Of a stretch of 64,000 nucleotides of DNA, positions 12,585 to 59,630 are shown one piece after another. Every line of letters begins with the position of its first letter. The stretch's first letter is position 1. Under the pieces are notes generated by a model. That model made no database searches. It was not told the origin of the DNA and saw only the letters and a program-made list of their open reading frames with translations. This DNA comes from Persephonella sp. (GTDB lineage: Bacteria; Aquificota; Aquificia; Aquificales; Hydrogenothermaceae). The stretch is taken from positions 1 through 64,000 of the forward strand of contig NZ_JALVTW010000017.1 of NCBI RefSeq assembly GCF_027023985.1, written 5' to 3'. The translations under genes and the position numbers were made by a program.

Positions 12585-13460
12585 TTGGAGAAAGATTTCG
12601 GCGGTTTTAAAAATATCCTTATTATCGGTTTAGGTCTTATCGGAGGGTCAATTGCCTTATCTCTCAAAAAAGAAGGCTATCAAGGGAAAATATACGGGTT
12701 TGATTTAAGCAAAGACAGGGTTAAAAAAGCTATTGAACTTGGGGCAATTGATGAAGGCTGGACAAAATTAGAAGATATTCCCTGGGATAAGATAGACCTT
12801 GTGATTCTTTCAACTCCTGTTCGCACATTTAAAGAAATAGCAAAGAAAATAAAACCGTTTTTAAAAAAAGATACTGTTGTTACAGATGTTGGTAGTGTTA
12901 AAGGAGACCTTGTAAAACAGCTTGAGAAAATACTATCCCCTGTGAAATTTATAGGGGCACATCCTATAGCCGGAACAGAAAAAGAAGGTGTTGAAAATGC
13001 AGTAATAGGTTTATTCAAAAACAAAAAACTCATACTAACCATAAATGAAGAAGACGAAGCTACAAAAAGACTTGAAAAATTCTGGACAGACTTAGGCTCA
13101 AAAGTTGAAGTTATGGATGCAGACACCCATGATTTTGTATTTGCAGCAGTATCACACCTGTCCCATGCAGTGGCATTTGCACTGGTTGATGCTCTTATAT
13201 CTTTATCAAAAGAGACAGGTATTGACCTATTTTTATATCCGGGGGCTGGTTTTAAGGATTTTACCCGTATTGCAGCAAGCTCTCCTAATGTCTGGAAGGA
13301 TATTTTTATTGAAAATAAAGAAAATGTCCTGCATACTATAGATGAATTTATAAAATCAATAGAGAAATTGAGGGAATTAATAGTACAGGGGGATGAGGAG
13401 CGGTTAATAAAACTGCTCTCAGAGAGCAGAGAAAAAAGATTATCACTTGAAAAAAATTAA
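12585..13460 (+). CDS. tyrA: Prephenate dehydrogenase
   Basis: The 291-residue TyrA-family enzyme has an N-terminal Rossmann motif ILIIGLGLIGGSIALSL, VILSTPVRT, TDVGSVKGD, FIGAHPIAGTEKEG, and the catalytic region THDFVFAAVSHLSHAVAFAL, where HLSH replaces the more usual HLPH. It oxidatively decarboxylates prephenate toward tyrosine, using NAD(P). No ACT or chorismate mutase domain is attached. The start codon is TTG with an AGGAG site 9 bp upstream. It is in the carA-CDF-uspA-tyrA operon, 13 bp after the UspA gene. Confidence 0.93.
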   Translation: MEKDFGGFKNILIIGLGLIGGSIALSLKKEGYQGKIYGFDLSKDRVKKAIELGAIDEGWTKLEDIPWDKIDLVILSTPVRTFKEIAKKIKPFLKKDTVVTDVGSVKGDLVKQLEKILSPVKFIGAHPIAGTEKEGVENAVIGLFKNKKLILTINEEDEATKRLEKFWTDLGSKVEVMDADTHDFVFAAVSHLSHAVAFALVDALISLSKETGIDLFLYPGAGFKDFTRIAASSPNVWKDIFIENKENVLHTIDEFIKSIEKLRELIVQGDEERLIKLLSESREKRLSLEKN

Positions 13461-13475
13461 TGGGAGGTATGTCCA

Positions 13476-14273
13476 ATGAAAAAACTTTTAAGCGCTCTTC
13501 TTATTGCGGGGGTGGCTGTTTACGGTTGCCAGAGCAAAAAGGAAGAAAGTAAAAGCTCAGAGCAATCAAACTCAGGCTCAGTAATGGAAACTGTTAAAAG
13601 TGGTGTTAGCAGTGTGGCAGAAAAAGCTGGAGAAGCTGCAAATGCTGCAAAAGAGGCTGCCCAAAACACTGTTGATGCTGTAAAATCTGGAGCACAACAG
13701 GCAGCTCAAGCAACAAAAGAAGCAGCTGAAAGTGCTGCAAATACAGCAAAAGAAGTTGCAAGCAACGCAGCTAATAAAGCAGGAGAAGCTGCACAGGCAG
13801 TAGCAGATAAAGCTTCAGAAGCTGCACAAAAAGCTGGTGAAATGGCAAAATCTGCTGCAAATAAAGCAACAGAAACAGCAGCTTCAGCAGCAAATAAAGC
13901 AGGAGAAGCAACTTCAGCTGCAGCAGAGAAAGCCAAAGAAACAGCAAATGAAGTTGCCCAAAAAGCCAATGAAAAAGTAGAAGCTGCGAAGCAGGCAGTA
14001 GCAGCAGCTAAAATAGATGGAAAAAAATTATTCACAGAAAAAGGCTGTGCAGGATGTCACCAGGCATCAGTTGATACTGTAGGACCTGCCTTAAGCAAAA
14101 TAGCAGCAGCTTACAAAGGCAAAGAGGAAGAACTTCTTAAATTCCTCAAAGGTGAAGCAAAACCAATAGTTGATCCTGCTAAATTTGCTGTTATGCAACC
14201 AAATCTCAATACAACAAAAGCTATGTCTGACGAAGAAAGAAAAGCACTGGCAGATTTCATACTCAGTCATTAA
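13476..14273 (+). CDS. Lipoprotein cytochrome c on a long Ala-rich helical stalk
   Basis: Residues 1-18 are a lipoprotein signal (lipobox VYGC, Cys18). Residues about 20-36 are a Ser-rich linker. Residues about 38-178 consist almost only of Ala, Lys, Glu, Asn, Gln and Thr in LEA-like repeats such as AANKAGEAAQ and AAEKAKETANE, predicted to be one long amphipathic helix or coiled coil. The C-terminus (about 181-265) is a monohaem cytochrome c with CAGCH at 191-195 and Met240 or Met250 as possible axial ligand. It should be a membrane-tethered electron carrier in the periplasm. It follows tyrA by 15 bp and ends at a terminator. Partners are unknown. Confidence 0.85.
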   Translation: MKKLLSALLIAGVAVYGCQSKKEESKSSEQSNSGSVMETVKSGVSSVAEKAGEAANAAKEAAQNTVDAVKSGAQQAAQATKEAAESAANTAKEVASNAANKAGEAAQAVADKASEAAQKAGEMAKSAANKATETAASAANKAGEATSAAAEKAKETANEVAQKANEKVEAAKQAVAAAKIDGKKLFTEKGCAGCHQASVDTVGPALSKIAAAYKGKEEELLKFLKGEAKPIVDPAKFAVMQPNLNTTKAMSDEERKALADFILSH

Positions 14274-14286
14274 ATTCCTATAAATA

Positions 14287-14308
14287 CCCTGCAAATGCAG
14301 GGCATTTC
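14287..14308 (+). terminator. Rho-independent terminator after the stalked cytochrome gene
   Basis: CCCTGC-AAAT-GCAGGG forms a perfect 6-bp stem followed by the short run CATTTCTC. It begins 13 bp after the stop codon and probably ends the carA-CDF-uspA-tyrA-cytochrome transcript. The T-tract is weak. Confidence 0.6.
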
Positions 14309-17854: not shown

Positions 17855-17876
17855 AAAAGGGGCTTTTGCCCCTTTT
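17855..17876. terminator. Bidirectional terminator
   Basis: AAAAGGGGC-TTTT-GCCCCTTTT is a perfect 9-bp inverted repeat with A/T runs on both sides. It begins 3 bp after the peroxiredoxin stop codon and overlaps the stop codon of the converging Cys-rich protein gene by 2 bp. It can therefore serve both transcripts. Confidence 0.9.
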
Positions 17877-18177
17877 ATTCTTTGAAGCCTTTAATACAGG
17901 CCTGTTTTATATCCTCTCTAATCTGTGAGTATATTCCTTTTGGCAGCTGGCATACTTTAACACATTGCTCATGGAAATGTTTTGCAACCTCAGGTTTTAC
18001 ATTATGGCTTAAAAGGTATTTTTCTAGAGTTTTTCCTGTTTTCTCACAATCAACATTATCCACATCACATCCGTCAAGAATTGATACATAAGTATCACAC
18101 ACCTGATTTATTTCCTGTTGGGATTGTGCAAAGGCAAACATACTTACTGATAAAAACGCAAATAAAACTTTTTTCAT
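17875..18177 (-). CDS. Small exported six-cysteine protein
   Basis: I place the start at the ATG at 18177, 12 bp inside the longest frame, because GGAGG precedes it at the right spacing. Residues 1-18 are a Sec signal peptide (KKVLFAFLSVSMFAFAQ). The mature about 82 residues hold six cysteines, starting CDTYVSILDGC, then DVDNVDC, EQCVKVC and KQAC. That spacing suggests disulfides or metal binding in the periplasm. I do not recognise the family. The first pair, C-x2-YV-x6-C, recurs in the lipoprotein at 62667-63029. It lies just downstream of scpA. Confidence 0.6.
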   Translation of the reverse strand: MKKVLFAFLSVSMFAFAQSQQEINQVCDTYVSILDGCDVDNVDCEKTGKTLEKYLLSHNVKPEVAKHFHEQCVKVCQLPKGIYSQIREDIKQACIKGFKE

Positions 18178-18189
18178 AAGAACCTCCAA

Positions 18190-57754: not shown

Positions 57755-58426
57755 TCAAGCCTCTATTAGCTTGCCATCTTTAAGTTTGATAATTCTACTA
57801 CAGTATTCTGCCACTTCCATATCATGAGTTGCAATGACCATTGTCACACTATATTTTTCGTTCATTTCTTTTAAAATGTTCATAACTATTTTGCTGTTTT
57901 CACTATCCAGATTTCCTGTTGGCTCATCTGCCAGTAAGATTTCCGGATTGTTTATAATTGCTCTTGCTATTGCTACCCTTTGTTGCTCACCTCCTGACAT
58001 CTGGGATGGTCTGTGTTCCAATCTGTGTTCTAAACCTAATCTTACCAGAATTTCTTTAGCTTTTTTTTCTGCTTCCTTTTTCTTATAAATTTCAGCAGGA
58101 AGCATAACATTTTCAAGTGCTGTAAATTCCGGAAGTAAATAATGGAACTGGAAAACAAATCCTATATTTTCATTCCTAAACCTTGATAACTGTTTCTCCG
58201 GTAAATGAAAAATATCTTTACCTTTTATAAAAACCTTTCCTCCTGTTGGTATATCTATTCCCCCAAGAAGATGTAAAAGCGTGCTTTTTCCTGAGCCTGA
58301 AGGACCCATCAGGGCAACCATTTCCCCATCTTCTATTTCAAGGTTTATACCTTTAAGGGCATTTATCTCTGCCCCTTCCAGATGATAAACTTTTCGTAGA
58401 TTTTCTGTTTTTATTGCACTACTCAT
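57755..58426 (-). CDS. lolD: Lipoprotein-releasing system ATPase LolD
   Basis: The 223-residue MacB/LolD-type ATPase has Walker A LMGPSGSGKSTLLHLLGG, the LolD-type Q-loop IGFVFQFHYLLPEFTALENV, signature MSGGEQQRVAIARA, Walker B ILLADEPTGNLD and the H-loop ATHDMEVA. With the LolC/E permease it extracts lipoproteins from the inner membrane for transfer to the outer membrane. The start overlaps the permease gene by 8 bp. Confidence 0.93.
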   Translation of the reverse strand: MSSAIKTENLRKVYHLEGAEINALKGINLEIEDGEMVALMGPSGSGKSTLLHLLGGIDIPTGGKVFIKGKDIFHLPEKQLSRFRNENIGFVFQFHYLLPEFTALENVMLPAEIYKKKEAEKKAKEILVRLGLEHRLEHRPSQMSGGEQQRVAIARAIINNPEILLADEPTGNLDSENSKIVMNILKEMNEKYSVTMVIATHDMEVAEYCSRIIKLKDGKLIEA

Positions 58427-59630
58427 ATCTTAAAACCTCAGCAGGAAGCTCCTTTGATGCAAAATATGCAGGTAGAATTGAGGACACAAAACATATCAGC
58501 AGGGATGACACAAAAACGGCAGATATATCAATAAATGATATTTTTAGAGGTAAATAGCTTATCATATAGACTTCCGGATTTAGCTTTATCAGATGGTATG
58601 TGTCCGCAACATATATTACCGTCAGTCCTATTATTGTTCCTACAACTGTTCCTGTTATCCCTATCAAAAGTCCCTGCCATAAGAAAACCTTTAGTATAAA
58701 TCTGCTGTCTGCTCCAATTGTTTTGAGGATAGCAATATCTTTTCTCTTTTCTCTGGCCTTTGTTATAAGCAGACTTGAGATATTAAAAGATGCTACAAGG
58801 ACAATCAAAGCTATAACCATAAACATCGCCAGTTTTTCCAGTTGAAGTGCCTGAAACAGACTTTTATTTAAATCCATCCATGAACGAATAAGATATGGAT
58901 AAGACAGATATTTCTCCAATTCCTTTTTTACAACATCAGCTTTAAACGGGTCTTTTACCTTTATCTGAATTCCCGTTATTGCATCTTTCATATCAAAAAA
59001 TTTCTGGGCTTCTCTCAGTGGCATCTGGACATAGGTTGAGTCATACTCATACATACCAAAATCAACTATTCCTGCTACATAGACCTTTTTGATTTTTGGT
59101 ATAAAGCCAAGGGGAGTTTTTCTACCAAAAGGAGACATTATCTTAAAGCTGTCCCCTACCCAGACATCAAGGGATATAGCAACATCTTTTCCAATCAGAA
59201 CATGGTTTGGTTTTTTTAAATCATCATAATTACCGGCAATTATTTTTGTGTTTAAACCCATTATCTTTTTATCTTTATCCGGGTCAACACCTCTGATTGT
59301 TATAGATTTTACATTTCCACCTTTAGAAGCTAGTGCTTGTGAATAAACAAAGGGCTGAAAATCAACAACATCTTTTATTTCTTTAAAATAAGGATATAAA
59401 TCTTTATACTCTGTGAACTTGCCTGTTATTTTAAAAATAACAATGTGTGGAGATGTTTCCAGCAATTTTTCTTTTAATCCCCATTGAAAACCACTCATAA
59501 CCGCAAGTGTAATTAATAAAGCAGATACACCAACGGTAATACCTATAAATGATATAACTGTCATAAATGATAAAGCCTTTGATTTTAAAGAAAGCAGATA
59601 TTTTAAGGCAATTTTTATATAAAGCGGCAT
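58419..59630 (-). CDS. lolC: Lipoprotein-releasing system permease LolC/LolE
   Basis: The 403-residue FtsX-type permease has one N-terminal transmembrane helix (about 20-45; SFMTVISFIGITVGVSALLI), a large periplasmic MacB_PCD domain (about 45-265) and three C-terminal helices (about 270-395; VALIVLVASFNISSLL, GTIIGLTVIYVADT). LolC and LolE cannot be told apart, and a single gene suggests a homodimeric permease unless another copy exists elsewhere. It is coupled to lolD. Confidence 0.92.
   Translation of the reverse strand: MPLYIKIALKYLLSLKSKALSFMTVISFIGITVGVSALLITLAVMSGFQWGLKEKLLETSPHIVIFKITGKFTEYKDLYPYFKEIKDVVDFQPFVYSQALASKGGNVKSITIRGVDPDKDKKIMGLNTKIIAGNYDDLKKPNHVLIGKDVAISLDVWVGDSFKIMSPFGRKTPLGFIPKIKKVYVAGIVDFGMYEYDSTYVQMPLREAQKFFDMKDAITGIQIKVKDPFKADVVKKELEKYLSYPYLIRSWMDLNKSLFQALQLEKLAMFMVIALIVLVASFNISSLLITKAREKRKDIAILKTIGADSRFILKVFLWQGLLIGITGTVVGTIIGLTVIYVADTYHLIKLNPEVYMISYLPLKISFIDISAVFVSSLLICFVSSILPAYFASKELPAEVLRYE

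Follow-up and report, generated by a model that had tools for sequence, protein, structure and literature searches.

The ORF at 13476-14273 (+) of the window, i.e., the whole stretch of 64,000 nucleotides of Persephonella sp. analysed here, probably encodes a lipid-anchored monohaem cytochrome c555, most likely residing at the inner membrane, that carries electrons from the bc1 complex or other donors to the cbb3 oxidase and is tethered by a helix of repeats. The tether is an array of 11-residue repeats with the charge layout of a class A amphipathic helix, and this undecad class A tether is a new detail among tethered cytochromes. No report of such a cytochrome tether was found in the mostly open-access literature searched. 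The initial annotation had regarded the architecture as a whole as undescribed; this applies to the class A undecad tether only, as membrane-tethered cytochromes have been described (available part of PMC7876108).

Gene layout and predicted lipid anchor

The gene is a single unbroken ORF of 265 amino acids, and a Shine-Dalgarno-like GGGAGG is located immediately 5' of it. From the N- to the C-terminus, the product consists of a signal peptide with a lipobox, a short polar spacer, the repeat tether and a cytochrome c domain. The features of the gene and its surroundings are as follows.

12585..13460 (+): tyrA, prephenate dehydrogenase (PF02153/PF20463; synteny)
13476..13526 (+): signal peptide of the lipoprotein, residues 1-17, MKKLLSALLIAGVAVYG (agrees with the lipobox pattern; the same in three relatives)
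13527..13529 (+): Cys18, predicted to be lipidated, with Q-S-K-K-E after it (lipobox)
13530..13586 (+): polar spacer, residues 19-37, outside the 11-residue register (sequence)
13587..14015 (+): tether of 13 repeats of 11 residues in tandem, residues 38-180, with the layout of a class A amphipathic helix (periodicity, register table, 33-bp DNA period, Lys/acid segregation)
14016..14270 (+): class I cytochrome c domain of c555 type, residues 181-265 (PF00034, 8e-15; 2zxy, E 1e-34)
14046..14060 (+): haem c attachment motif CAGCH, residues 191-195 (sequence)
14193..14195 (+): Met240, probably the second ligand of the haem (Met also in the alignments with 2zxy and the L007 homologue)
14287..14302 (+): terminator-like hairpin CCCTGC-AAAT-GCAGGG 3' of the gene, with a weak T run (sequence)

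The gene neighbours are tyrA, which ends 15 bases before the cytochrome ORF, and trkA, with no respiratory operon around, a point against the respiratory reading. We consider tyrA a marker of the conserved locus and do not think that it is functionally linked to the cytochrome. A link to tyrA, trkA or peroxiredoxin was rejected, as other genera place the gene elsewhere. Elsewhere in the window (17875-18189, - strand) is encoded a small secreted protein of 104 amino acids with several conserved-looking Cys residues and no Pfam match; a similar ORF (L045 4046-4399) adjoins a peroxiredoxin gene, and the protein may represent a conserved unknown family.

The signal peptide carries Lys at positions 2 and 3 and ends in A14-V15-Y16-G17 before C18, and none of the six residues preceding the Cys is D, E, K or R. 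This end agrees with what we take to be the lipobox pattern of prokaryotes in general; three relatives share it unchanged, and every other tethered homologue also has a lipobox. The lipoprotein call was made by pattern, on the signal peptide with its lipobox and Cys, and lipidation of Cys18 is predicted from the sequence; as a prediction, the lipid anchor of the initial annotation was upheld. Residue +2 after the Cys is Gln, which in E. coli directs lipoproteins to the outer membrane, the rule being that of E. coli and the present host a member of the Aquificota. The residues at +2 to +6 of the tethered homologues form a recurrent Q/S/E-(S)-K-K-E motif that might be a sorting signal in the phylum. 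A LolC/E-like ABC permease is encoded in the window at 58422-59621 (-), with a score of 355 bits slightly below the family cut-off of 362, and LolA is encoded at C3, so the genome encodes a lipoprotein sorting system of some kind. For the tethered c555 itself, an inner-membrane site seems the more likely, although the Gln and the Lol-like proteins would speak for the outer membrane.

The c555 domain and its CcoO-fused relatives

The assignment to cytochrome c was confirmed. PF00034 (Cytochrom_C) matched residues 181-264 with an E-value of 8e-15 and 56.3 bits against a cut-off of 21.3. The nearest natural relative of solved structure was c555 2zxy (phmmer E 1e-34), with 85 residues aligned gap-free and Met240 matched. 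The CXXCH motif with the Pfam match, together with the whole-domain alignment including the Met, places the domain among class I cytochromes c of the c555 type. The PDB entries 2zxy and 3x15, titled cytochrome c552/c555, are presumably from Aquifex aeolicus. The whole haem domain of both aligns with the present one, but the protein solved in 2zxy is soluble and single-domain, without lipid anchor or stalk, and no paper on a membrane-bound Aquifex c555 was found in the mostly open-access literature. The own genome likewise encodes, at C16, a soluble paralogue of 64% identity that consists of the single domain behind an ordinary signal peptide.

In four genomes of sister genera (G016, G017, G023, and G029), homologues of the c555 domain follow the C-terminus of CcoO in one fused protein, joined by an apparently flexible linker of ~30-60 residues; they are reminiscent of the CcoO-cytochrome c fusions of NCBIfam PRK14486. 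The present cytochrome differs from these in being a separate lipoprotein. In G017 the fusion gene adjoins CcoN and a di-haem subunit within the cco cluster. The own genome has an unfused cco cluster with the same gene order, and its CcoO ends right at the fusion point of the fused relatives. In a domain tree built on 89 columns, the stalked and CcoO-fused domains clustered together with moderate support (93/86). In no genome did the fused and the tethered form occur together, with 4 fused and 24 of 37 tethered, the latter from a list compiled by hand in which some genomes are incomplete; the probability of this by chance is ~0.01 when kinship is ignored.

Periodicity, charge layout and variation of the tether

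The LEA-like repeat region of the initial annotation was borne out by its periodicity. The lag-11 identity in the stalk was 0.39, whereas 2000 shuffles gave a mean of 0.18 and no value above 0.28. The hydrophobic period was 3.64 residues, its power of 8.3 exceeding the 99.9% limit of the shuffles (2.3). A 33-bp period is visible in the DNA at 13852-13943. The array comprises ~13 strict Ala/Lys/Glu repeats of 11 residues, is free of proline and keeps a steady register, and in the L007 homologue from the same locus it is shorter by exactly one unit. An AlphaFold model from two sequences predicted helix throughout the stalk at low confidence (pLDDT 52) and is used here for helix content only. As LEA_4 was not among the Pfam matches of the protein at E 0.1, the stalk is LEA-like in period only. 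Matches to Apolipoprotein, Mitofilin and CsmC in Pfam were far below the cut-offs and were dismissed as composition.

Projected on a 3-11 helix, Ala and Val occupy five adjacent positions, Lys the two borders, and Asp/Glu the far side. All 17 Lys residues lie at 60-120 degrees from the apolar centre and 18 of the 19 acids at 120-180 degrees, a segregation that no arrangement among 10,000 permutations equalled and that was unaffected by the choice of helix angle. We take Lys at the border together with acids centred on the polar face to be the apolipoprotein class A layout, and the tether has both. The segregation was repeated in G006, G005, G014, G002, and G012, i.e., in all six long-tether homologues tested when the own protein is counted. 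The repeats of G014, G002, and G012 differ strongly in sequence while keeping the charge layout, which suggests selection on the helix. In the shorter tethers of other relatives, which often include Pro, the charges are not so clearly segregated.

The mean hydrophobic moment of the tether was 0.25 (Fauchere-Pliska scale, whole array), approximately comparable, on that scale and over that length, with the 0.257 of Plin4 and 0.30 of alpha-synuclein (PMC5889406). This value is only suggestive of lipid-surface binding by the tether. The apolar face is almost entirely Ala and lacks aromatic residues, and any binding to lipid would accordingly be weak. Plin4, alpha-synuclein, apolipoprotein A-I and the group 3 LEA proteins share with the tether the 11-residue period and a similar moment (PMC5889406); no sequence homology is claimed, and the present helix differs in joining a lipid anchor to a haem domain.

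The gene order cdf-usp-tyrA-cyt is conserved across the genus, and at this locus the tether from the Cys to the cytochrome domain measures 158, 158, 145, 145, 54, 36, 36, 34, 34, and 34 residues, distributed as follows.

158 residues: G000 and G006
145 residues: G005 and L007/G013
54 residues: G007
36 residues: G004 and G009
34 residues: G001, G008, and G011

In G012 the tether is long and interrupted by the contig end, and the complete genome of G003 has no cytochrome gene after tyrA. G003 carries at L064 1563-2813 (-) two tandem soluble c555 genes that adjoin a third small cytochrome gene. In other genera the lipoprotein is encoded at other loci, with tethers of ~36-99 residues in which Gln, Glu, Pro or Gly abound; the Pro/Gln/Gly-rich ones are probably disordered. 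In G014, a 138-residue tether of the helical type belongs to a gene outside the tyrA locus. A stalk-only search of 61 relatives found the repeat in only four genomes of the genus, with a weak match in G014, and the collection scan revealed no stalked cytochrome outside Persephonella. L008 (Paeniroseomonas), which matched by repeat similarity only, was discarded, being an LEA-like protein that has a hydrophobic segment at its C-terminus and lacks a haem motif.

With 34-158 residues at one locus, stalk length is not conserved. The stalk was thus variable in both length and composition among relatives, the very outcome that the initial annotation had named as speaking against it. Its proposal that the length serves to span the periplasm is not supported, given this range and the empty slot of G003. 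Its length of 20 nm is arithmetically right (~140 residues x 0.15 nm) but presumes an unbroken upright helix.

Possible functions of the tethered cytochrome

Genes for cbb3 and for a bc1 complex whose c1 is di-haem are present in the own genome, so that an anchor, a linker and a cytochrome c occur together with bc1 and cbb3, the combination that marks a tethered carrier. In the available part of PMC7876108, cytochrome cy (CycY) of R. capsulatus is described as working from bc1 to cbb3, its cytochrome c domain being joined to a transmembrane helix by a 69-residue linker; ~45 residues of linker are enough for respiration. The present protein resembles it as a membrane-anchored monohaem c with a long linker between bc1 and cbb3. 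It is likened by architecture, not by homology, since cytochrome cy has a transmembrane anchor and that part of the source reports no 11-residue class A helix (PMC7876108). An assignment to CycY proper was rejected, as a lipobox is present instead of an uncleaved N-terminal transmembrane anchor. The heliobacterial c553, whose host is Gram-positive, unlike the present one, has an anchor that we take to be of the fatty-acid kind. It is included among the carriers whose anchor is a transmembrane domain or a fatty acid, and both the idea of a tethered carrier and fatty-acid anchoring are already known (PMC7876108, available part).

The CcoO fusions as nearest relatives and the sorA-sorB neighbourhood elsewhere make an inner-membrane shuttle to cbb3 the most likely function. 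Electron transfer from bc1 to the oxidase by the tethered c555 is suggested by the natural CcoO fusion. As for other donors, in G014, G018, and G031 the tethered c555 gene lies directly 3' of a SorA-like/SorB-like pair, the matches of the L054 pair being below the equivalog cut-offs, and these neighbours are consistent with a general periplasmic electron carrier. The best reading is that the donors differ by species. The arrangement downstream of sorA-sorB-like genes was observed at L044, L054, and L057 and suggests a sulfite oxidation unit of three genes that includes an electron carrier of its own. A SorAB partnership in the own genome was rejected, since the sole ORF of this kind, with a molybdopterin domain, is 198 aa long and none reaches SorA length.

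The class A charge layout speaks more for a helix that lies flat on the membrane, or for a leash that is flexible, than for a rod standing upright. A rod would make the protein an outer-membrane lipoprotein with a right-handed coiled coil of ~20 nm that offers its haem to inner-membrane enzymes or an outer-membrane conduit. The match of stalk length to the periplasm, the proline-free array in steady register, the Gln at +2 and the LolA and LolC/E-like genes would fit this, but the tethers vary from 34 to 158 residues at one syntenic locus, close relatives differ by an 11-residue unit, and the fused c555 domain belongs to an inner-membrane enzyme. Moreover, with Lys flanking the apolar face on both sides and the acids away from it, the helices of a parallel homo-oligomer would be expected to repel each other. 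We therefore consider the periplasm-spanning rod improbable, and a tether that rests reversibly on the membrane surface, or works as a semi-flexible leash, more likely.

A purely disordered leash, in which LEA-3-like repeats remain unfolded in water and the class A pattern is an inherited repeat chemistry of no importance, is rather unlikely, though less so than the rod. The Pro/Gln/Gly tethers of relatives, of other lengths and in the same role, argue for it, as does the finding that LEA proteins are largely disordered in water (available parts of PMC6403280 and PMC8670023); the retention of the Lys/acid segregation in six homologues despite divergent repeats argues against it. That the protein is an envelope stress protector, an LEA-like lipoprotein whose repeats stabilise the membrane or neighbouring proteins with the cytochrome being secondary, is very improbable. 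It draws on the likeness to group 3 LEA repeats and on a sub-threshold match to the meningococcal Ag473 lipoprotein family (NF047840; 34.6 bits, residues 1-129), which has a similar N-terminal lipoprotein part and repeats. However, the family cut-off of 100 bits is far above this match, Ag473 has no cytochrome, and the likeness is probably one of composition; in addition, the cytochrome domain, unlike the repeats, is retained in all syntenic homologues that are complete enough for it to be seen.

In the preferred reading of an inner-membrane shuttle, the lipid-anchored c555 would, like cytochrome cy, move electrons in the periplasm from the bc1 complex, and from other donors, to the cbb3 oxidase. 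The tether would hold the haem domain close to the membrane and leave it free to move between partners. In this sub-lineage it has become an 11-residue repeat array, predicted to form a long class A amphipathic helix that probably lies reversibly on the membrane surface or acts as a semi-flexible leash. A possible, still tentative extension is that this apolipoprotein-like tether lies flat on or lifts off the membrane, so that the state of the membrane would set the reach of the haem.

The effect of linker length and stiffness on electron transfer between respiratory complexes has so far been studied with cytochrome cy. The genus offers a natural series at one locus, in which tethers that range from 34 to 158 residues and are either disordered or amphipathic helices carry the same haem domain, and which is extended by the soluble paralogues and by the oxidase-fused version in sister genera. 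This series permits a direct test of tether function.
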